Source: Candidatus Eisenbacteria bacterium (GTDB lineage Bacteria > Eisenbacteria > RBG-16-71-46 > JAFGJU01). Taken from it: DNA of 64,000 bases. Where the stretch lies: contig JAPLKG010000020.1 of NCBI GenBank assembly GCA_026388185.1, positions 49,978-113,977 on the forward strand, read 5' to 3'. The notes under the pieces are model-generated. The model ran no database searches, was not told the origin of the DNA, and was given only the letters and a program-made list of their open reading frames with translations. Both the position numbers and the translations under genes were made by a program. Shown in pieces: positions 36,687 through 48,049 of the stretch. How positions within the stretch are numbered: position 1 is the first letter of the stretch; every line of letters starts with the position of its first letter.

Positions 36687-37328
36687 CTACTTGATCCCGT
36701 GAGTCTTCTTGTATTCCAGCCAATTTTTCTTGAGCTCCAAGAAATCCTTGAAGCTCTTCCTCAAGAGAAAAGGATTTGTCCTCTTCTCCTGCCCGATGGT
36801 GGACGAAGGTGCGGCGCCGACGTCGTGGCCGGGCCAAACCTCGGTGTCGTCCGGCAGAGTCGTGAGCTTTTCGTTCAGGCTGCTATATTCCAGGCGCGCG
36901 CCTTCGCCATGATCGGTGCCTCCGACCTTGCCGACAAAGAGGGTATCGCCCGTCAACAGTCTGCCGGCTACGAGCAGGCAGACTGAATCGGGCGTGTGGC
37001 CGGGCGTGTGTAAGACCCTGGCCCTCAGAATCCCAATCTCAAGCTCGCTCCCGTCCTCGACCGAGATATCGTGTTTGGCCTTGGCGAGAGCGTGCATAAC
37101 TATCTTGGCGTGAGTCTCCTTCTTGATGAGATCGTTTCCCGCGATGTGGTCGGCGTGATCGTGTGTATTCACAATGTATTTGACCGTCACGCAATGCGCC
37201 CCGATCCTCTCGAGAAGCTTTTCACATTCGAACGAGGGGTCAACAACGAGACCCACTCGTCCATCCTCATCAGCCAATAGATAGGCAAAATTTCTGTCGC
37301 CTCCAGCGGGAACTTGTTCGAATATCAT
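36687..37328 (-). CDS. MBL-fold metallo-hydrolase (glyoxalase II / persulfide dioxygenase-like)
   Basis: Zinc or iron hydrolase of 213 aa. The metal-binding motif THDHADH is at about 54-60, with HTPGHTPDS and LLTGDTLFVGKVGGTD further on and a final WPGHD, the standard set of the ETHE1/glyoxalase II group. Substrates in the group include lactoylglutathione, persulfides and other thioesters; the sequence does not decide. It is last in the nucleoside operon, and its start overlaps the PNP stop (ATGA), so it is co-translated with PNP. Confidence 0.9.
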   Translation of the reverse strand: MIFEQVPAGGDRNFAYLLADEDGRVGLVVDPSFECEKLLERIGAHCVTVKYIVNTHDHADHIAGNDLIKKETHAKIVMHALAKAKHDISVEDGSELEIGILRARVLHTPGHTPDSVCLLVAGRLLTGDTLFVGKVGGTDHGEGARLEYSSLNEKLTTLPDDTEVWPGHDVGAAPSSTIGQEKRTNPFLLRKSFKDFLELKKNWLEYKKTHGIK

Positions 37329-38164
37329 CTCGCGATTTCCCTGATGAGCTCCCTCAGGAACGGCACTATTCGCTTGACGGTCTCACCCACCAGTCGAGTC
37401 ACCTCGTCGTGGCTGAGTTCGCCGGTTCCTATCCCGGTGGCCAGGTTCGAGATGCAAGAGAGTCCCAGCACCTTGAGGCCCAGGGTGCGCGCCACCGCCA
37501 CCTCGTGCGACGTAGACATACACGCCGCATCCCCACCTATCTTGTGCATGAATCGTGACTCGGCGGCAGTCTCGTAGCTCGGGCCCTTGGTCGTGCAGAG
37601 AGTCCCCTGATGGAGTACGATTCCCGTTCGCCTGGCGGCCTCTCTCGCCACTTCCATGTAGTTCCTGTCGTAGATGGCCCACGCTCTCCTCACAATCGGC
37701 TCACTTTTCCATCCGCATTGTCCCCTGAGGGGCGGACGGAACATCAAATCGATTTGATCCGTTACAAGCATTACTTCGCCCGGCCCGATTTTCTCCGTCA
37801 GGGAGCCACTTGCATTCGTGACTATCAATGAGTGAATGCCGAGCCCTGCAAGAACGCGCACCGGAAACACGACGTCTTCTATTGGGTGCCCCTCGTAGAG
37901 GTGCACCCTTCCCTGGAGGAAGGCCACGGTGGCGCCCCCGAGGCGCCCGAGGATAAGAAACCCGTGGTGGCCGTGCACCGACGGCACCCTGAAATGGGGG
38001 ATCGTCTCGTACGGAATTGCACAGCCCAGCTCGATCTCCCGTACAAGCGGTGCAAAGCCGGAGCCAAGTATTACGCCCACAGACGGCAATAGAGAGCACT
38101 CTCTACGAATTCGTCGAACGGCGTCTGTCACCATCTGTTCTCGTTCGTCCCAGCTCTTCATCAC
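37325..38164 (-). CDS. punA: Purine-nucleoside phosphorylase
   Basis: Splits purine (deoxy)nucleosides with phosphate to the base and ribose- or deoxyribose-1-phosphate. The protein has 279 aa, the length of trimeric PNPs. Diagnostic elements are GSGFAPLV (phosphate site), VPSVHGHHGFLILG, TNASGSL, and KGPSYETAAESR with the base-binding Glu, plus CISNLATGIG, whose Asn contacts the purine ring. It is the enzyme that would generate pentose-1-phosphate for the pathway proposed here. It follows the permease gene after 79 bp with palindromic sequence between. Confidence 0.95.
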   Translation of the reverse strand: MMKSWDEREQMVTDAVRRIRRECSLLPSVGVILGSGFAPLVREIELGCAIPYETIPHFRVPSVHGHHGFLILGRLGGATVAFLQGRVHLYEGHPIEDVVFPVRVLAGLGIHSLIVTNASGSLTEKIGPGEVMLVTDQIDLMFRPPLRGQCGWKSEPIVRRAWAIYDRNYMEVAREAARRTGIVLHQGTLCTTKGPSYETAAESRFMHKIGGDAACMSTSHEVAVARTLGLKVLGLSCISNLATGIGTGELSHDEVTRLVGETVKRIVPFLRELIREIAR

Positions 38165-38243: not shown

Positions 38244-39158
38244 CTAAGGCTTTTCCTTCTCGTAAGGTACGCCGTCTGCGGCAGGGGGTATTGAGCGCCC
38301 TATCAGTCCCGCAAGAACAACTATGGTCGCCAAGTATGGTATCATTTGTATGAATTGAGTGGGGACATTTCGTCCTTGAAGCTGCATTTGCAGAGACTCG
38401 GCCGCGCCAAACATGAGGCAGGCGCCGGCCGCACCCAGTGGATTCCATTTTCCCACGATCATTGCCGCCAGCGCAATGTATCCTCTGCCGCTCGACATCC
38501 CATCCGTGAAGCTGTGCTGATCCATTGCAAGCCAGGCGCCGCCGAGGCCGGCCAGGACGCCACTCAGAGCGACTCCGGCGTAGCGCATACCCGACACGTT
38601 GACCCCCAGGCTCTCGGCCGCCTCCGGGTGCTCGCCGACCGAGCGCAGCCGTAAGCCAAACACCGACTTGAAGAGCAGAAACTGGGAAGCCACGATGACT
38701 ACCAGGGTGGCCAGTATCAGTGGCGAGGAAAATATCGTTTCGATCACGGGAATGTCCTTCAGCAAGGGGATCTTCCACTCTGGCAGCCCGACGATTCTGT
38801 CCGAGTTGCTCGAACTTCCAAAAATGACTTTCAGAAGAAACCGCGTGGCTCCCATGGCAAGTATGTTTATCGCAAGGCCGCTCACAATCTGCTCTGCCTT
38901 GAAAGTCACGGTTACAACCGCATGTATCAGCGCGGTGGCCAACCCTCCCAGCATTGCGGCCAGGACGCCCACCCAGGGATTGCCCGTGTAATAAGTGGCG
39001 AGCACGCAGGTGAACGCACCGTTGAGTAGAATGCCCTCGAGGGCAATGTTCACGACCCCGCCGCGCTCCGAGAAGGTGCCGCCGATTGCGGCCAGCGTGT
39101 ACGGCACGGATATGCGTATTGTCTGGGAGATGAATGTGAGAGCGATCATCCAATCCAT
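38244..39158 (-). CDS. Nucleoside ABC transporter permease (NupQ-like)
   Basis: Inner-membrane subunit of the carbohydrate-uptake-2-like family, 304 aa and about eight helices. Family marks are RISVPYTLAAIGGTFSERGGVVNIALEGIL, shortened here to the conserved GVVNIALEG, and the segment SVGEHPEAAESLGVNV, which matches the EAA-like loop that contacts the ATPase. It resembles the NupQ/YufQ subunit of B. subtilis guanosine transport. Three bases separate it from the other permease, so the pair forms the heterodimeric channel. Confidence 0.92.
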   Translation of the reverse strand: MDWMIALTFISQTIRISVPYTLAAIGGTFSERGGVVNIALEGILLNGAFTCVLATYYTGNPWVGVLAAMLGGLATALIHAVVTVTFKAEQIVSGLAINILAMGATRFLLKVIFGSSSNSDRIVGLPEWKIPLLKDIPVIETIFSSPLILATLVVIVASQFLLFKSVFGLRLRSVGEHPEAAESLGVNVSGMRYAGVALSGVLAGLGGAWLAMDQHSFTDGMSSGRGYIALAAMIVGKWNPLGAAGACLMFGAAESLQMQLQGRNVPTQFIQMIPYLATIVVLAGLIGRSIPPAADGVPYEKEKP

Positions 39159-39161
39159 AAA

Positions 39162-40250
39162 CTATCCCAGGCTCTTCTTCTTGAGAGAAAGCACAAGCTT
39201 CCCGAAAACGTTTGTTCCAGCGATCACCACCAGGATCACGATTGCCTGAAGTATGTCCACCAATTCCTTCGGAACGATGGCGTTGACGACAAGCCCCCCA
39301 TAACTGAGGGCGCCGAACAGCAAGGCCGCAAGCACCACGCCCAGCGGATGATTTCTGCCGAGAAGGGCGACCGCGATGCCCATGAAACCGATTCCCGAAG
39401 AGAAGCCCCCCTCGTAGTAATGCTTGTATCCCATCACGAAGTCCACTCCGACGAGACCCGAGAGAGCACCGCTCAGCGTCATCGCCGTTATCACGGCAGA
39501 GCCGACACTTATCCCGCCATACTCTGCCGCCGACGGATTCGAGCCCGTGGCTCTGAGCTCAAAGCCGAACTTCGTTTTCCACAAGAAGAGGTAGACGGCG
39601 ACCGCGGCGCCGAGGGCGAGAAACAGGCTGAGGTTTACGGGCGAGCCCCTGAAGACCGGCCAGAACTCCTCCAATCTCGGAATCTGAGCCTGCGCGGCGA
39701 TCCTCTGGGTGTGGACGGTTTCCGGAACGAAGTATACGTAGGTCACAAGATAGCCGGTGAGAGCCATGGCTATGAAATTGAGCATTATCGTGTTTATGAC
39801 TTCGTGCGTGCCGAATCTAGCCTTGAGGTAGCCGGGGATGAACCCCCACAAGGCTCCCCCGAGAGCGCCGGCGAGGATGCAGAGCGGTACCAGAAGAAAG
39901 CCCGGAACGCCGGAGAAGGTGAAACCTACCCACGCTACGGCGAAGGCGCCGATGTAGAGTTGACCTTCCGCGCCTATGTTGAAAAGACCTGCCTTGAACG
40001 CGAGTGCGACGGAAAGACCCGTGAAGATGAGGGGGGTGGCCTTGAATAATACCTGGCCCAGGCCATAGAAGTTGCCGAAGGTTCCTCTCAGGAGGATGCC
40101 GTAAACAACTACCGGACTCTGACCTATTGCGGCTATGAACGCGGCTCCCGCCAGAAGAGCCGTTGCGACGGCAATAACCGGTACCGCTATTGCTCCGCTC
40201 AGCTTCTGGACCAACTGCCCGCGATCAAGTTGCCTAAGAATATCGTTCAT
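39162..40250 (-). CDS. Nucleoside ABC transporter permease (NupP-like)
   Basis: Partner permease of 362 aa with about ten helices. It has the family block ALAFKAGLFNIGAEGQLYIGA and the ATPase-contact loop ATGSNPSAAEYGGI, and starts with a short cytoplasmic helix (ILRQLDRGQL). This pairs with the NupP/YufP type. The gene lies 43 bp after the ATPase gene. Together with the BMP-type binding protein, the set is expected to import purine and perhaps pyrimidine nucleosides. Confidence 0.92.
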   Translation of the reverse strand: MNDILRQLDRGQLVQKLSGAIAVPVIAVATALLAGAAFIAAIGQSPVVVYGILLRGTFGNFYGLGQVLFKATPLIFTGLSVALAFKAGLFNIGAEGQLYIGAFAVAWVGFTFSGVPGFLLVPLCILAGALGGALWGFIPGYLKARFGTHEVINTIMLNFIAMALTGYLVTYVYFVPETVHTQRIAAQAQIPRLEEFWPVFRGSPVNLSLFLALGAAVAVYLFLWKTKFGFELRATGSNPSAAEYGGISVGSAVITAMTLSGALSGLVGVDFVMGYKHYYEGGFSSGIGFMGIAVALLGRNHPLGVVLAALLFGALSYGGLVVNAIVPKELVDILQAIVILVVIAGTNVFGKLVLSLKKKSLG

Positions 40251-40293: not shown

Positions 40294-41841
40294 TCACAAT
40301 GCTCCGGTCATCATCATGCCAAGCTCTTTCTCGTCTGTCTGCCGGGGGTCGACCGTGCCGGCGATACGGCCGTTATAGATCACGGCGATCCTGTCGCTCA
40401 AGCTCAGGATTTCTGACAGGTCGGCGGAGACCAGCAAGATTGCGCAGCCGCTATCTCTCTGCGCGATGAGGCTTCGGTGTATGAATTCAATCGCCCCAAT
40501 GTCAACGCCCCTGGTCGGCTGAGCGGCCACCAGGAGGACCGGGTTGCGCGAGAGCTCTCTTGCGACTATGAGTTTCTGCTGATTCCCGCCGGAGAGCGAC
40601 CCCGCCGGAAGCTCCGGAGCCTGCGGCCTTATGTCGAAACGCCGGAGCACGGCCTGCGCGTTTCTTAGGATGGCATTGCGCTTCAACCACAGTTTTCCGG
40701 CGTACGGAAGCCCGAAGTGCGAGCCCAAGATGAGGTTTTCTCCGATCGTGAAATCGGAAATCAAGCCGCGCTTGAGGCGGTCTTCGGGAATGTGCGCAAT
40801 CCGCAGTTTCAAGATTTCCTTTGGCGAGAGATTAGTGATATCCCTTTCCAGAAGTCTGATCGCCCCCGATGTGGGCCTCCTCAAGCCGGTGATCACTTCC
40901 ACAAGCTCCGTCTGGCCGTTGCCCTCAACACCGGCTATGCCCAGAATTTCTCCGGAGAAAACCGACAGCGAAATTCCCTTCAGCTTCGGCACCTTCGACG
41001 CCCCCAGAGCGTGGACGTCCTCAAGATCGAGAACGACATTCTTCCTGACGGCCGGCCCTTTCTCCACTTCGAGCAGAACCTTTCTTCCCACCATGAGCGT
41101 AGCGAGTTCCTCGGTAGAAGTGTCACGCGTGTTCACGACGCCCACGACCTTACCGCGTCTCATGACCGTGACCCTGTCGGAGATATCCATCACCTCGGTC
41201 AACTTGTGGGTAATGAAAATGATCGTCTTGCCCTGCTCCTTGAGCTTTCTCATCACGGAGAAGAGCGCCTCGGCTTCCTGGGGGGTAAGTACCGCCGTGG
41301 GCTCGTCGAGTACGAGTAACTCGGCGCCCCTGAAGAGAATCTTCACTATTTCCACGCGCTGCTGGGCTCCCACGGAGAGTTTCTCCACGAGCGTGTCCGG
41401 CTCGACGGCCAGGCCGAACTTCTGAGACAGCGCGGCAATCTTCTCTCTGGCGGTCTTTGTGTCCAGCACGACTCCGGCCCTAACGGGTTCCGACCCGAGG
41501 ATAACGTTTTCCGTGACGGACAGCGGCGGTATCAGCATGAAGTGTTGGTGGACCATCCCTATTCCCAGGGAAATGGCGTTGGCGGGGCTCTTGATTTCCG
41601 CGGGTTCTTCCCTGACGAATATTCTCCCGGAGTCGGCCCTGTACAATCCGTACAGAATTCGCATGAGCGTGGACTTGCCCGCGCCGTTTTCGCCCACCAG
41701 CGCGTGTATTTCTCCCACACGCACATCGAGATTCACGCAGTCATTGGCTTTCACGAGGGCGAAGCGCTTCGAGATGCCCTCCATGCGGACAAACGGGGTA
41801 GAAGGGGAAGCTGAGCGGACATCAGGTGGAAGGAACAACAA
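40294..41841 (-). CDS. Nucleoside ABC transporter ATP-binding protein (double ABC, NupO-like)
   Basis: A 515-aa ATPase with two tandem ABC domains. The first has an intact Walker A GENGAGKST, a signature variant LSVGAQQRVEI and Walker B LLVLDEPTAVL; the second has degenerate Walker A GVEGNGQTEL and signature LSGGNQQKLIVAREL, the usual asymmetry of RbsA/NupO-type proteins. The start is TTG at 41841 or 41838, behind GGAGAG. It overlaps the end of the binding-protein gene by 20 bp. Confidence 0.92.
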   Translation of the reverse strand: MLFLPPDVRSASPSTPFVRMEGISKRFALVKANDCVNLDVRVGEIHALVGENGAGKSTLMRILYGLYRADSGRIFVREEPAEIKSPANAISLGIGMVHQHFMLIPPLSVTENVILGSEPVRAGVVLDTKTAREKIAALSQKFGLAVEPDTLVEKLSVGAQQRVEIVKILFRGAELLVLDEPTAVLTPQEAEALFSVMRKLKEQGKTIIFITHKLTEVMDISDRVTVMRRGKVVGVVNTRDTSTEELATLMVGRKVLLEVEKGPAVRKNVVLDLEDVHALGASKVPKLKGISLSVFSGEILGIAGVEGNGQTELVEVITGLRRPTSGAIRLLERDITNLSPKEILKLRIAHIPEDRLKRGLISDFTIGENLILGSHFGLPYAGKLWLKRNAILRNAQAVLRRFDIRPQAPELPAGSLSGGNQQKLIVARELSRNPVLLVAAQPTRGVDIGAIEFIHRSLIAQRDSGCAILLVSADLSEILSLSDRIAVIYNGRIAGTVDPRQTDEKELGMMMTGAL

Positions 41842-42865
41842 TCTCTCCGGAAATTATCTTCTCCTTGAACTCTTCAACTTTGCTGCGTATATCATCACCG
41901 ATTAGCTCTCGATTGTTACTGTCATAGACGTAGCTGATTCCACCCTCGGCGACTCCCAACATCTTCACGCCACCCTTGAACGTGCCGTTCTGAACGGACT
42001 TGATGGCCTCGTAAACGGCCACGTCTACGTCCTTTATCATACTCGTCAGCACGTGTCCCGGGGCTTCTGCGTACTGGTCAGAGTCAACGCCGATCGCCAG
42101 CTTGTTCATTTCTCTGGCCGCCTCGAACACACCCAACCCCGTCGAACCCGAGGCGTGGAATATGATGTCGGCACCCTTCGAGTACTGGCTCAACGCGAGC
42201 TCTTTGCCCTTGCTGGGGTTCTTGAAGGCGTTTGCGGTGACGCCGGCGTATGCCACGAAGACTTCCACGTCAGGCTTCGCGTACTTGGCGCCGGCCAGGT
42301 AGCCCGCTTCGAACTTTTTTATCAAGGGGATTTTCATGCCGCCCACGAACCCTATCTTGCCGGTCTTACTCTTCAACGCCGCAAGGGCGCCCACGAGGAA
42401 AGAGCCTTCCTCTTCCTTGAACTTGAGCGCGAGAAGGTTTGGCGGGATTGTCTGATCGGGGCTAACGGCATAGTCGACGCACGCGAACTTCTTGCCGGGG
42501 AAGTCTTTTGCAATGACGGTCACGTCGTCGGTGAAGAGAAATCCTGTTCCGAATATCAGCCCGGCATCGCCGCTCGCGAGAAGCCTCAAGGCAGACTCTC
42601 TGTCGGCTCCTTCGCCGGGCTCTATGTATTCGAATGTGACACCCAGCTCCTTCTTGGCTCTTTCCAATCCTCTGTAAGCCGAATCGTTGAAGGACTTGTC
42701 GCCCCTGCCTCCGACGTCGAACACAAGCCCGACCTTGAGGGGAGAAGCAGAGGTTTGTGCCTGTTCCTCCGATTGTCCGGGCTCTTTTTCCTTCTTGCCG
42801 CAGGAGATCGACGTCGCAACGAGCAGGACGAGGAGGGTGAAAAAGAAGGGTCCGGTGTGTTTCAT
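41822..42865 (-). CDS. BMP-family nucleoside-binding lipoprotein
   Basis: Periplasmic substrate-binding component of 347 aa from the ATG at 42865; the frame upstream is only a shadow. The signal ends in SISC (lipoprotein Cys). The family start [19 protein letters not shown] is diagnostic of the BmpA/PnrA/TmpC group, members of which bind purine nucleosides. The start overlaps the thymidine kinase stop (ATGA). Specificity (guanosine, inosine, adenosine or deoxynucleosides) cannot be read off. Confidence 0.93.
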
Positions 42866-43518
42866 CTCTTTGCACCTGTGTGTGTTTTGCCGGGGGCGTG
42901 CCGATGAAGTGTGCGTTTCTTGGCGCGAGAGCGTTTTACCGCCCGCGCGGGTGTTTTCTGGAGAGGTTCGAAGCAATTACGGCACCTCGCCTCGTAGACG
43001 TCGAAGGCACCCACCACGATTCTCTCGTCGCTGGCGACCTTCCGCTGGGTCCTGTTAGCCGGGTTGCCGCAGACCACACATATCGCCAGGGTCTTGGTTA
43101 TGTACTCTGCTACGGCAAGAAGCTGTGGTATCGGCTCGAAGGGCTTGCCCCTGTAGTCCTGGTCGAGGCCGGCGACAATTACTCTCTTTCCTCTGTTTGC
43201 AAGCTCCTCGCACACTTCAACGAGCTCGGGTCCGAAGAACTGTGCCTCGTCTATTCCCACGGCGTCGGACTCGCTTGCCTTCTCGAGGATGTCTCTGCAA
43301 TCTGCGATTTCCTTGGAAGGAATGCGCTGAAGGTTGTGCGAGACTATGTACTCCGTGCCGTATCTCTTGTCTATCTTGGGCTTGAATATCGCGACCTTCT
43401 GCCTCGCTATCTGGGCTCTGCGCAATCTGCGTATCAGTTCTTCGGTCTTGCCGCTGAACATGCTTCCGCATATGACCTCAATCCAGCCCACGTTTTTTGG
43501 TACGATGTTCTCAGTCAT
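42862..43518 (-). CDS. tdk: Thymidine kinase
   Basis: Phosphorylates thymidine (and deoxyuridine) to the monophosphate. The 218-aa enzyme is of the bacterial/TK1 type: P-loop [11 protein letters not shown], the Walker B-like IDEAQFF, and a zinc-binding pair CVVCG and CRNCF. The ATG at 43518 is preceded by GGAAG; a TTG at 43536 would add six residues. A basic tail of about 25 residues ([10 protein letters not shown]) extends past the usual end. It is co-translated with the binding-protein gene. Confidence 0.95.
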
Positions 43519-43612
43519 CTTGCGTCTTCCAAACAAGCAGCAAGTCTTGATGCAGTCTTGTGTGCGGCGTAAGAGGCCCGAGGCGGCCCCGCGCAGAGTG
43601 GCCTCAACGCCC

Positions 43613-44227
43613 CTACAGCAACGAACGAATCTTGGTCTTCAGAAGATCGATGGCGACGATGTTGTGACCTCCTTCGGTGATTATGATGTCCGCGTACCTC
43701 TTGGAAGGTTCCACAAACTGGAGATGCATCGGCCGCACACTCTTCTCATACTGGTCGATTATGGACTCGATCTTCCTGCCTCTTTCGTTCAGGTCGCGTC
43801 TCAGTCGCCTGATCAACCTCACGTCGGGGTCGGTGTCTATGAAAACTTTTATGTCCATCATCCGTCTGAGCTCGGAGTCGTCCAAGATAAGAATCCCCTC
43901 GAGCACGATCACCAGGTGCGGCCCCATCTTCTCCTTTTGTAGGCTGCGACGATGCTGAGTGAAATCATATATGGGACGCTCTATCTCGTCGCCGCGAAGT
44001 AGCCTTTCGAGGTGATCCCGTAGAAGGAGCATGTCGAAAGCGTCAGGATGGTCGAAGTTCTGCTTCGAGCGCTCTTCGTAAGGCAGATGGCTCAAATCTT
44101 TGTAGTAGGAATCCTGCTTTATGATGGTGACCTTGTCGGAGCCGAGTTCCTTGTCTATAGTGTCGGCGACGAGCGTCTTGCCTGAGCCCGATCCGCCTGC
44201 TATCCCAATCAATATGCCACGACTCAT
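43613..44227 (-). CDS. udk: Uridine kinase
   Basis: Phosphorylates uridine and cytidine. The 204-aa protein has P-loop GGSGSGKT near the N-terminus, [28 protein letters not shown] and the [10 protein letters not shown] motif that contacts the base, all typical of Udk. The C-terminus has the ATP-lid-type R-rich segment [17 protein letters not shown]. It lies between the EutN-type gene and tdk; with tdk and the deoxynucleoside kinase, the operon covers all main nucleosides. Confidence 0.96.
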
Positions 44228-44243: not shown

Positions 44244-44528
44244 TCACGAGCTGGAATCGCTCACAATGTCCACGTTGTCAACGACGCCCACGATCACCGT
44301 TCTCACGGGTCCCCTCTCCATTCCCAGTACTTGCGATGCGGCGTTGCCCTCATCGGCCACCAGCACTACGTCTCCGCTACCTGCGTCCACGCTGTCCACG
44401 GCGAGCACGGTCTTCCCCGTGGGAGCCAGGGAAGAGTCCAGGGGTCGAACAAGGAGAATCTTTCTACCGTGGAGGTCGTTATGCTTTATTGTTGCAACTA
44501 TCTTGCCTACGACCTGCGCAAGGAACAT
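44244..44528 (-). CDS. EutN/CcmL family microcompartment vertex protein
   Basis: Predicted pentameric shell vertex (BMC-P) of 94 aa. The sequence MFLAQVVGKIVATIKHNDL, followed by GRKILLVRPLD, a Gly-rich turn (DAGSGDVVLVADEGNAA) and RTVIVGVVDNVDI, is a full match to the EutN/CcmL family. Such pentamers cap icosahedral shells made of BMC-H/T hexamers; no BMC-H or BMC-T gene is in this window. The start lies 50 bp inside the deoxynucleoside kinase gene, showing tight coupling. It is placed in a nucleoside salvage operon, and the RpiB-like protein nearby carries a possible encapsulation peptide. Confidence 0.9.
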   Translation of the reverse strand: MFLAQVVGKIVATIKHNDLHGRKILLVRPLDSSLAPTGKTVLAVDSVDAGSGDVVLVADEGNAASQVLGMERGPVRTVIVGVVDNVDIVSDSSS

Positions 44529-45195
44529 CTTTGCATCCCGCTAACGTCTCTACGGAGACGGAATTGTGTGCCTGAACCAATTCGGCGATCTCGTCGACCT
44601 TGTGCTTTTTCTCCAGCAGGTTTACCACGTCCGTGTCGAGAATGTGAATGGAGGTCATCTTCCGCACTCTGTCAAACCACTCTTCGTAAGCTTCGTCCAG
44701 AATCCTCAAATAATCGAGCGTAATGGATTTCTCGCTTTCCCTCCCTCTGTTCTTGATTCTCTCGAGAAGGCTTTCGGGCTTCGCCTTCAGAAATATTATC
44801 AAATCGGGAGGTCTGATGAAATCGAGCATCGCGTCAAAGAGAGCCGTGTAGTTGGCGTAATCCCTGTCGCAAAGGTGGCCGAGACGGTTGAGCGTTCTGG
44901 CAAACACCTCCGCGTCTTCGTATATCGTCCTGTCCTGGATGAAAGAGATGCCGGCCTCCAACATTCGCTTCTGGGCTTGAAATCTCTTCGAGAGGAAAAA
45001 AATCTGGAGGTGAAAACTCCAGCGATCCATGTCGGCGTAAAAGTCGTCAAGATAAGGATTGTCAATCACAGGTTCGTAGTATGCGTGCCAGTTGGTGCGC
45101 ATGCTGAGCTCTCTCGTGAGGAGCGTCTTGCCAGCGCCTATGTTGCCTGCAATCCCGAGGAAGAAGCTCTTGTTTTTCACTGTAGGTATCCTCAC
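44479..45195 (-). CDS. Deoxynucleoside kinase (deoxyadenosine/deoxyguanosine kinase type)
   Basis: Salvages deoxynucleosides by 5'-phosphorylation. The 238-aa protein has P-loop GNIGAGKT (17-24), YEPVIDNPYLDDFYAD, the family ERS/DRT motif (QDRTIYEDAEVF) and a lid RIKNRGRESE. This matches bacterial dAK/dGK rather than TK. The last ~20 residues (GCKDVPCAGRRQDS) come from sequence shared with the EutN start in another frame, and may be a non-conserved tail. The start overlaps the hpt stop (ATGA). Confidence 0.94.
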   Translation of the reverse strand: MRIPTVKNKSFFLGIAGNIGAGKTLLTRELSMRTNWHAYYEPVIDNPYLDDFYADMDRWSFHLQIFFLSKRFQAQKRMLEAGISFIQDRTIYEDAEVFARTLNRLGHLCDRDYANYTALFDAMLDFIRPPDLIIFLKAKPESLLERIKNRGRESEKSITLDYLRILDEAYEEWFDRVRKMTSIHILDTDVVNLLEKKHKVDEIAELVQAHNSVSVETLAGCKDVPCAGRRQDSCNNKA

Positions 45196-45719
45196 GTTTC
45201 TTGTATTTCAGATTCGTCAAGGACAGCCACGTACGGGAGGTTTCTGTATTTCTGGGCCAGATCAAGACCGTAGCCCACCACGAACTCGTTGGGAATTACA
45301 AATCCGACGTAATCGATCTTGATGTCTACCTCTCTCCTTTCTCGCTTGTCAAGAAGCGCACATATCTTGAGCGACTTGGGAAGCCTGGCCTGCAGCACCC
45401 TGCATATGTAAGCCAACGTGAGCCCGCTGTCGACGATGTCCTCAATGATCACCACGTTTTCGTCGCTAATGTCTCTTTCCAGATCCTTGAGGATCCTCAC
45501 AACGCCCGAGCTCTTCGTGAGGTTGTTGTAGCTCGAGACGGACATGAAGTCGATTTCCGGAGAAATGGAGACTTGCCTGACGAGGTCCGAAAGAAAAATG
45601 AAGCTGCCGCGCAGAATGCCGATGAGTACGGGAGATTTTCCTTTGTAGTCACGAGATATTTCGGCGGCCAACTCCTTGACGCGCTTCTGTATCTGTTCCT
45701 CCGTGAGTAGAACCTGCAT
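45192..45719 (-). CDS. hpt: Hypoxanthine phosphoribosyltransferase
   Basis: Converts hypoxanthine and guanine with PRPP into IMP and GMP. The 175-aa protein has the PRPP motif VVIIEDIVDSGLTL, the DFMSVSSYNN segment for flexible loop, and VGYGLDLAQKYRNLPYV, which are standard for Hpt. ATG at 45719 follows AGGAAGG; a longer open frame to 45938 contains no family sequence. It opens the salvage operon, recycling bases that PNP releases. Confidence 0.96.
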   Translation of the reverse strand: MQVLLTEEQIQKRVKELAAEISRDYKGKSPVLIGILRGSFIFLSDLVRQVSISPEIDFMSVSSYNNLTKSSGVVRILKDLERDISDENVVIIEDIVDSGLTLAYICRVLQARLPKSLKICALLDKRERREVDIKIDYVGFVIPNEFVVGYGLDLAQKYRNLPYVAVLDESEIQET

Positions 45720-45919
45720 TGCCTTCCTCACAACGCGTGGCTGTGTCCTGAGTGGTTGTGGCTTGAGAAAAACATGCGTCGGAAACTGAAGCTCGCAAGG
45801 TGCCTCGAACTGAGAGCCCGCTTGACGGCTCCTGATGGCGCGTGTATAGTTCAGATTCGCGCCACGGGAGAATCTTCCGCGTCGAAGGGTTCTCTTGACC
45901 GCTCGTAAGCTCTGCGGGC

Positions 45920-45949
45920 AGTCTACAACGGGCACCAACTGGGTGTCAA
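45920..45949 (-). promoter_or_regulatory. Probable promoter of the nucleoside salvage operon
   Basis: On the minus strand, TTGACA (45944-45949) and TAGACT (45920-45925) are separated by 18 bp, 6/6 and 4/6 matches. The predicted leader to hpt is about 190 nt; I searched it for a purine riboswitch core and found none. Confidence 0.5.
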
Positions 45950-45962
45950 CTGCTAACTCGAC

Positions 45963-47381
45963 GTGTCTTGGACGTGTGCATCCGCGGGCACTATCGAGCG
46001 GTCAGGTGCGTCCGAATCCGTCGGTGAATCCCTCAAGGAGGACATTCTGAGTAGCTCTCTTCTGCTCAAGGGCGGCACAATCGTGACCATGAACGCAAAG
46101 CGCGACGTGTTCGCGGGTGACGTCCTCATAAAAGACGGGATCATCGCCGCCGTCGGTGGGGCGTTGCAGGAAACCTTCGGCAGTGCGGGGAGGGTGATAG
46201 ACGTCGGTGGGTGCTACGTGCTTCCGGGATTCGTACAAACCCACGTTCATCTTTGCCAGACGCTTTTCAGGGGGTTGGTCGAGTACGCAGGCCTCGGAAA
46301 ATGGCTCGAGCGGGTCTGGAATCTCGAGGCCGCTCACGACCCACGTTCCATGTACTATTCCACGTTGCTCGGTTGCTGTGAGTTGCTCAAGAGTGGGACC
46401 ACGTGCATTCTGGACATGGGGAGCGTCCACCACCAGGAACACGTCTTTCGTGCTTTGAGCGAATCGGGCATGAGGGCGTTCGCCGGGAAGGCGATGATGG
46501 ACTGCGGTGACAGCGTTCCGGCGGGATTGAGAGAGTCGACGCGGCAGTCCCTCGAAGAAACCCTTGGCCTCATCTCGCACTGGCATGGGGCGAACGACGG
46601 GAGAATTCGCTACGCCCCAGCCCCGAGATTCATGGAGAGCTGCAGCGACGAGCTTCTGAGAACCGTCTCGGAAAAGGCGCGCGAACTCGGCCTCTTGATT
46701 CACTCACACGCCGCTGAAACCGAAGAAGAGTTGAACAACTGTAGGATCAAGCACGGAGTGAGTCCGGTAGCTTTCTTACATTCAATCGGCCTCACCGGAA
46801 GACACGTCGTGCTCGCTCACTGCGTGCACCTCGAGACCCAGGATTTCGGAATCCTGAGCGACACCGGGACCAAAGTTGCTCACTGTCCGTCCAGCAACCT
46901 CAAACTATCCTCCGGAATAGCCGACGTCGGTCGCATGCTGCGTTCCGGCGTGAAGGTGTCGCTCGGATGCGACGGCGCGCCCTGTAACAACAATCTGGAC
47001 ATGATCACCGAGATGCGCCTGGCGGCACTCTTGCAGCGATACCTGAACGGGGACGAATTCCAGTGGGCTCAGGCAGTCCTGGAGGCTGCCACTCTTGGTG
47101 GAGCGGGGGCGCTGGGTTTGAGCGACACGATCGGCAGCGTCGAGCCCGACAAGAAGGCCGACATTACCGTCATAGACGTCACTCGCGCTCACGCGTTCTG
47201 CGGCGCCGACTGTGATCCTAGTGCGAGAGTAGTCTTTTCTGCAAGAGGCTCGGACGTGAAATTTGTGATAGTCGAAGGTCAGGTGCTGGTCGAGAACGGC
47301 TCTCTGACGAAACTTGACGAGCAAAAGATCGTGGCGCAGAGCGCAGAGGAGTTGAAGAAGCTCGTTGTTCGCTGCAATTGA
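45963..47381 (+). CDS. Amidohydrolase, nucleobase/nucleoside deaminase-like (SsnA/TrzN/MtaD group)
   Basis: Metal-dependent hydrolase of the cytosine-deaminase-like clan, up to 472 aa. The metal ligands are visible in TQHVHL-type QTHVHLC, HSHAAET, LAHCVHLE and CDGAPCNNN. Members deaminate 5-methylthioadenosine, S-adenosylhomocysteine, adenosine or guanine; the sequence does not separate these. Homologues begin close to LLLKGGTIVTMN, and a strong AAGGAGG at 46035-46041 precedes ATT/CTG codons at 46044/46047, so a non-AUG start may apply; the GTG at 45963 lacks such a site. It is coupled to the rpiB-like gene and divergent from hpt. Confidence 0.9.
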   Translation: MSWTCASAGTIERSGASESVGESLKEDILSSSLLLKGGTIVTMNAKRDVFAGDVLIKDGIIAAVGGALQETFGSAGRVIDVGGCYVLPGFVQTHVHLCQTLFRGLVEYAGLGKWLERVWNLEAAHDPRSMYYSTLLGCCELLKSGTTCILDMGSVHHQEHVFRALSESGMRAFAGKAMMDCGDSVPAGLRESTRQSLEETLGLISHWHGANDGRIRYAPAPRFMESCSDELLRTVSEKARELGLLIHSHAAETEEELNNCRIKHGVSPVAFLHSIGLTGRHVVLAHCVHLETQDFGILSDTGTKVAHCPSSNLKLSSGIADVGRMLRSGVKVSLGCDGAPCNNNLDMITEMRLAALLQRYLNGDEFQWAQAVLEAATLGGAGALGLSDTIGSVEPDKKADITVIDVTRAHAFCGADCDPSARVVFSARGSDVKFVIVEGQVLVENGSLTKLDEQKIVAQSAEELKKLVVRCN

Positions 47382-47431
47382 TTAGGGACTCAATCAGAAT
47401 CCGACGGAATCCGAATGGGCTGGAGGACCGC

Positions 47432-48049
47432 GTGGAAAAAGAGAAGATCACCCCGGGAAGGATAAGGGAAGTCATAAGGGAAGTCATGAGTGAGATCGCA
47501 TCCGACCGAAAGCCCTCGGTGCCGAGCGGCTCCGAACGCGCGGGCTCGGGACGAAAGGACAAGGTCTCGGCGCCCGGAAGTGCGCAAGCCTCTCCCAAGA
47601 CTCATTGCCGCGTTGCCATCGGCGCCGATCATGGGGGTTTCAAGCTGAAGGAGACGCTGAAGAAGTATCTAGAGGAAGAACTCGGCGTCATCGTAAAGGA
47701 TCTGGGAACCATGAGCGAAGGGTCCGTGGATTACCCCGACCTTGCCGTGGCCGTCGCACGAGCCGTTGCCGCGGGAGAATGCGAGAGAGGAATCGTCATA
47801 GATACGATGGGGATAGGTTCTTCCATCGCCGCCAACAAGGTCAAGGGAATCCGAGCAGCCCTCTGCCATGATGTATCAACTGCCAGAAGCAGCCGTGGTC
47901 ACAATGACGCCAACGTCCTCGCTCTCGGCTCCAAGGTGGTCAATCCGGGCCTTGCCCGCACGATGGTGAGAGCATGGCTCTCGACTTCCTTCGAAGGAGG
48001 AAGGCATGGCCTGAGAGTCCAGAAGATAATGGCCGCAGAAAAGGGATGA
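47432..48049 (+). CDS. rpiB: RpiB-family sugar-phosphate isomerase-like protein with N-terminal encapsulation-peptide-like helix
   Basis: The 205-aa product from GTG 47432 (GGAGG 5 bp before it) has three parts: an amphipathic helix at about 9-25 (GRIREVIREVMSEIAS, with Ile11/Val14/Ile15/Val18/Ile22 on one face), a low-complexity linker (26-57) and an RpiB domain (58-205). GADHGG (64-69), SIAANK (131-136) and RGHNDAN (155-161) are conserved. The usual catalytic Cys region ICGTGIG reads IDTMGIG (123-129), so Asp124 replaces the Cys, and the Glu of the mycobacterial type is Ser130. The helix-linker pattern is that of microcompartment cargo. It may be an RpiB with altered chemistry or substrate. 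Confidence 0.85.
   Translation: MEKEKITPGRIREVIREVMSEIASDRKPSVPSGSERAGSGRKDKVSAPGSAQASPKTHCRVAIGADHGGFKLKETLKKYLEEELGVIVKDLGTMSEGSVDYPDLAVAVARAVAAGECERGIVIDTMGIGSSIAANKVKGIRAALCHDVSTARSSRGHNDANVLALGSKVVNPGLARTMVRAWLSTSFEGGRHGLRVQKIMAAEKG

Follow-up and report, generated by a model that had tools for sequence, protein, structure and literature searches.

The DNA analysed here, a 64-kb window from contig C20 of a 2.62-Mb Candidatus Eisenbacteria genome, encodes an RpiB-family protein (hereafter EP-RpiB) with an N-terminal extension. We put the probability at about 0.88 that this extension is an encapsulation peptide (EP) with a flexible linker, predicted from sequence to package the enzyme with DeoC, an acylating aldehyde dehydrogenase (AldDH) and PduL into a metabolosome of the sugar phosphate utilisation (SPU) type. 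The organelle itself probably digests DNA sugars. An earlier note on this DNA had proposed that the extension marks microcompartment cargo, a proposal now supported by shell genes in the genome, by the tracking of the helix with shell genes across the phylum, and by like helices on DeoC and AldDH. The extension has the features expected of an EP, namely a terminal amphipathic helix of 15–20 residues, a disordered linker and a tie to shell genes.

The GTG start and the GGAGG in front of it were located as the earlier note had described them (Table 1), and the start is sound because in the relative L043/L014 a stop codon sits a few codons 5′ of the equivalent start. In the AlphaFold2 model computed with 23 relatives, helix residues 8–25 have a predicted local distance difference test (pLDDT) score of about 92, residues 26–59 are without predicted structure at pLDDT 50–66, and the RpiB fold follows from residue 60 on, with pLDDT mostly >90. 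The amphipathic character claimed for the helix was confirmed, as all six Ile/Val/Met residues of the 12-mer IREVIREVMSEI lie inside a 140-degree arc (P = 0.005 versus shuffles), and the hydrophobic moment averaged across the 23 relatives gives a z of about 2. The linker agrees with its first description too, with Ser, Gly, Pro and charged residues accounting for 71% of residues 26–59 and only two large hydrophobics among them. That ordinary RpiB proteins have no such extension is borne out by the Pfam domain and the best PDB relatives, which begin aligning at residues 56–61; the top Foldseek match is Clostridium thermocellum RpiB 3he8, with a TM score of 0.94 by target length over about 145 aligned columns. 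The second RpiB of the genome (L010), in frame with GlyA, is also without the helix. This housekeeping RpiB shares one open frame of 613 aa with serine hydroxymethyltransferase (L010:1378-3219; C11:396900-398741), apparently an RpiB–GlyA fusion.

The genome holds four bacterial microcompartment (BMC, PF00936) and three BMC-P (PF03319) domains. All four PF00936 domains are found on contig C11, in two BMC-H genes and one two-domain BMC-T gene, and the same locus contains two BMC-P genes, PduL, the acylating AldDH and a PduS-like protein. The window contains the third BMC-P gene, 3 kb away from rpiB and flanked by the genes for deoxynucleoside kinase and uridine kinase. DeoC (TIGR00126 deoC, above cut-off) is encoded on contig C5, beside a pyrimidine-nucleoside phosphorylase and a phosphopentomutase-like gene and not beside shell genes. 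The genome encodes the SPU-type components BMC-H/BMC-P, pfam01791 DeoC, pfam02502 RpiB, and AldDH with PduL at the shell locus. The DeoC N-terminus MHNEELVERIAREVLRRLDV forms a targeting-type, EP-like helix, the AldDH N-terminus MVSDDKRISALIDAVLREL contains a helix of the same kind as that of RpiB, and one hydrophobic spacing, rare in N-terminal regions, is common to the N-termini of all three enzymes. When the first 45 aa of 138 long open reading frames were scanned for an EP-like pattern, six carried it: RpiB, DeoC, AldDH and three signal or membrane segments. Groove residues of PduA have been reported to bind EPs (PMC11157265); a BMC-H of this genome (L008:9274-9555) has AMVKAA and AAVQAGAAAA, which are small-hydrophobic groove residues as in PduA.

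The N-termini of homologues, whose comparison the earlier note had called for, show the helix and linker in relatives, confined within the phylum to shell-bearing genomes. Using PF00936 and PF03319 as shell markers in 47 genomes of the phylum, we found both in the same 33 genomes and neither in the other 14. An RpiB with the N-terminal helix and linker is encoded by 24 of the 33 shell-bearing genomes, and RpiB–DeoC fusions with an EP-like interdomain helix, e.g. ISPEDLERIAEQLRALLG, by a further five; in G021 and G023, both shell-bearing, the RpiB genes are cut by contig ends. No RpiB helix tag was seen in the 14 shell-less genomes, in 11 of which the RpiB start is readable. The tag is therefore present in 29/33 shell-bearing versus 0/14 shell-less genomes (Fisher 9e-9, uncorrected for relatedness). 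An EP on DeoC occurs in nearly all shell-bearing genomes and was not found on the two readable DeoCs from shell-less genomes. A scan of named genome contigs identified Candidatus Eisenbacteria bin56 (L043) as the nearest named relative, shell-associated and 64% identical; the other matches are mostly canonical Cys-type RpiB, with one Asp-type from a Zixiibacteriota metagenome-assembled genome (MAG; L047). The ties between RpiB and DeoC extend to gene order: rpiB adjoins deoC both in G017, where a BMC-P gene lies on the same stretch, and in G129, where the pair is part of the shell locus. Five genomes within the phylum and one beyond it encode RpiB–DeoC fusions, and in the fusions L214, L217, L218 and L219 the EP-like helix is conserved inside an otherwise unconserved interdomain linker. 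An AlphaFold2 model of a fusion places a helix at residues 163–177 at low confidence (four sequences, mean pLDDT 69.7) and is not relied on here.

Several observations weigh against packaging into an SPU-type metabolosome. The tag, the enzymes and the shell genes are spread over three separate loci; the RpiBs of shell-bearing G002 and G003 have no clear helix, and neither does the DeoC of G015 have an EP helix; and the SPU function is itself a published prediction (PMC8217296). In addition, the hydrophobic moment of the single EP-RpiB peptide is modest (P 0.06–0.11 by shuffles), and because these single-peptide shuffles are weak we rely on the homologue evidence. The tracking of the tag with shell genes across the phylum also speaks against an unlikely alternative, in which the helix is no shell-binding signal but serves chiefly to condense RpiB together with further enzymes that carry EPs, or to pair it with DeoC. 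EPs alone can drive cargo condensation (PMC12339742), and the interdomain helices of the RpiB–DeoC fusions are placed where spacers might act; condensation is nevertheless compatible with shell binding, as both roles are reported for EPs. A neutral tail at the N-terminus, a wrongly called start and a helix of membrane or signal type are very improbable readings of the extension, despite the modest single-peptide moment. The helix is conserved in 24 genomes while linker length and sequence vary freely, and it is absent from the other RpiB of this genome and from shell-less genomes; one of its faces bears R/E charges and a signal-peptide core is missing; and the start has a ribosome-binding site and a counterpart in relatives. 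A signal peptide, a mis-called start and a chance helix were all rejected.

Table 1. Positions of EP-RpiB, its parts and the neighbouring genes in the window.
Feature	Position	Strand	Basis
EP-RpiB ribosome-binding site GGAGG	47422..47426	+	read from sequence, 5 nt ahead of GTG 47432
RpiB-family protein with N-terminal EP-like extension, 205 aa	47432..48049	+	PF02502 residues 61-199, E 2.8e-55
Amphipathic helix (putative EP), residues 8-25	47453..47506	+	AlphaFold2, homologues, arc test
Disordered linker, residues 26-59	47507..47608	+	pLDDT 50-66, composition
Asp124 in place of catalytic Cys (Cys65/66 E. coli, Cys69 T. cruzi)	47801..47803	+	alignment
Met126 in place of Ser/Thr	47807-47809	+	alignment
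5'-Deoxyadenosine deaminase-type amidohydrolase	45963..47381	+	NF005557 above cut-off, PF01979; 50 nt 5' of rpiB
Hypoxanthine phosphoribosyltransferase-like protein (true start probably internal)	45192..45938	-	PF00156
Deoxynucleoside kinase	44479..45195	-	PF01712 E 4e-54
BMC-P (EutN/CcmL family) shell vertex protein; the genome's third pentamer gene	44244..44528	-	PF03319 E 1.2e-24
Uridine kinase-like protein	43613..44227	-	PF00485
Thymidine kinase	42862..43536	-	PF00265
BMP-family substrate-binding lipoprotein, nucleoside-type ABC transporter	41822..42976	-	weak NF047927 match; conserved order
ABC transporter ATPase	40294..41841	-	translation, synteny
ABC transporter permease	39162..40250	-	translation, synteny
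ABC transporter permease	38244..39158	-	translation, synteny
Purine-nucleoside phosphorylase	37325..38164	-	NF006054 above cut-off

The earlier note had mentioned neither the BMC-P gene of the window, nor the nucleoside operon around it, nor the altered active site of RpiB. The catalytic roles in RpiB have been described for the trypanosomatid and E. coli enzymes, where a His opens the ring, a Cys takes the C2 proton and a Thr two residues on moves the proton from O2 to O1, while in mycobacterial RpiB the base is Glu75 and not Cys (PMC4783025). EP-RpiB has neither the Cys or mycobacterial Glu base nor a Ser/Thr two residues later; its ring-opening His position is His157. We compared 147 RpiB domains, the microcompartment-type copies coming from this phylum and others. 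The base position is Asp in 39/39 microcompartment-type copies, compared with Cys in 94 and Gly in 14 of the others. The second position is nonpolar in all 39 (Ala 33, Met 3, Val 2, Leu 1) and is Ser, Thr or Asn in the 94 Cys-type copies. His157, Arg191, His192 and Arg195, involved in ring opening and phosphate binding, are kept in 39/39, and the 39 proteins form one clade (support 100/92). At the DNA level, the pattern for Asp-x-x-Gly-Ile-Gly-Ser was found in 42/385 genomes, of which 41 have BMC-P genes, versus 74 of the 343 genomes without the motif (115/385 overall; Fisher 3e-23); outside the phylum the corresponding figures are 16/17 and 66/321. The sole Asp-motif genome without a BMC-P match, G383 (L164), is an 82% complete MAG. 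Some Asp-type RpiBs of other phyla (L169/G099, L047 and L170/G265) have an N- or C-terminal domain of about 45 residues like LITERTVIEAVKSGQKTIMISPDALITALARDKAKQLG, which replaces or accompanies the helix tag.

Since the Cys/Thr catalytic pair is changed, the exact reaction of RpiB is in doubt. We see roughly even odds that the microcompartment-type enzyme is still a ribose-5-phosphate isomerase, with Asp as the proton-shuttling base, serving an RNA-derived ribose branch in the compartment; this would fit the tag equally and differs on the reaction only. The enzyme retains the RpiB fold and most of the active-site residues, the NCBIfam model labels EP-RpiB ribose-5-phosphate isomerase B (rpiB, above cut-off), the carboxylate Glu75 takes the place of Cys in mycobacterial RpiB (PMC4783025), and ribose-5-phosphate isomerisation is the assignment made by Axen 2014 (PMC4207490) and Sutter 2021 (PMC8217296). 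However, the Ser/Thr proton shuttle between O2 and O1 is gone too in 39/39 copies, and most of these genomes already have a Cys-type or mycobacterial-type RpiB. The DeoC fusions, five in the phylum and one outside, likewise count against it, as they suggest a link to the substrate or product of DeoC. More tentatively, the microcompartment-type RpiB may not be a ribose-5-phosphate isomerase, and may instead open or anomerise the 2-deoxyribose-5-phosphate furanose ring and pass the resulting open aldehyde to DeoC, or act as an Asp-based isomerase on another sugar phosphate of the lumen. 2-Deoxyribose-5-phosphate has no C2 hydroxyl, so that an aldose–ketose reaction on it is impossible, yet several lineages have RpiB joined to DeoC in a fusion or encoded beside it. 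A carboxylate-based isomerase acting on ribose-5-phosphate or another sugar phosphate is possible.

The operon in the window is composed of nucleoside uptake and salvage genes. The order hypoxanthine phosphoribosyltransferase, deoxynucleoside kinase, BMC-P, uridine kinase, thymidine kinase, BMP lipoprotein and ABC transporter genes is conserved in G000, G013, G014 and G015, and in G004 without the deoxynucleoside kinase; the order of the lipoprotein, ATPase and permease genes is also conserved in relatives. In G017, BMC-P and deoxynucleoside kinase genes lie near rpiB and deoC. It has been proposed that SPU compartments process DNA degradation products (PMC8217296), and the location of a BMC-P gene among genes for nucleoside uptake and salvage supports such a role. 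Directly 5′ of the EP-RpiB gene is the 5′-deoxyadenosine deaminase-type gene; the compartment might receive a further supply from 5-deoxyribose salvage, which involves an isomerisation and an aldol cleavage (PMC6079011).

In the pathway that we propose, the cell would take up (deoxy)nucleosides, phosphorylases would cleave them, and deoxyribose-5-phosphate would be formed from the products. The EP-RpiB helix would bind the groove between shell hexamers and help the cargo condense. Inside the shell, DeoC would yield glyceraldehyde-3-phosphate and acetaldehyde, AldDH and PduL would convert the acetaldehyde to acetyl-phosphate, and RpiB would work alongside them in the lumen, with a sugar phosphate as its substrate.

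SPU compartments and EPs are themselves already known. Like the SPU metabolosomes described previously (Axen 2014, PMC4207490; Sutter 2021, PMC8217296), the present system combines a BMC shell with pfam01791 DeoC, pfam02502 RpiB, AldDH, PduL and PduS. It differs in gene arrangement, with DeoC and RpiB each encoded at a separate site away from the main locus and one BMC-P gene placed within a nucleoside uptake/salvage operon, and in RpiB itself, which bears an EP and is without the canonical Cys/Thr pair. The EP itself resembles those of PduP, PduD and CcmN, with a terminal amphipathic helix of about 18 residues and a disordered linker (PMC8217296, PMC12339742, PMC11157265), but is borne by an RpiB-family enzyme and is interdomain, in RpiB–DeoC, in some relatives. 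With canonical RpiB (3he8, E. coli 2vvr, T. cruzi 3k7s) the protein shares the fold, the ring-opening His, the phosphate-binding Arg/His and the Asp-His motif, whereas the Cys is replaced by Asp and the Ser/Thr by Ala, Met, Val or Leu, a Ser follows GIG, and the EP and linker are added. Our searches of open-licence papers, taken without supplements, turned up no description of an EP on RpiB, the RpiB Cys-to-Asp signature, interdomain EP-like helices in RpiB–DeoC fusions or a conserved BMC-P/nucleoside-salvage satellite locus; the satellite locus, the interdomain helices and the clade-wide Asp/nonpolar replacement appear to be unreported.

SPU is among the most widespread BMC types, with >280 loci in 26 phyla (PMC8217296), and we found no experimental test of its substrate in open-licence papers. 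The presence of a shell gene in this operon ties an SPU compartment to nucleoside import and salvage, in support of a role in DNA or nucleoside catabolism, and the Asp-x-x-Gly-Ile-Gly-Ser motif is also a marker of shell-bearing genomes. As the catalytic pair is lost throughout the clade, automatic annotation of these proteins as ribose-5-phosphate isomerases may be wrong, and the same loss makes the function of this RpiB directly testable biochemically.
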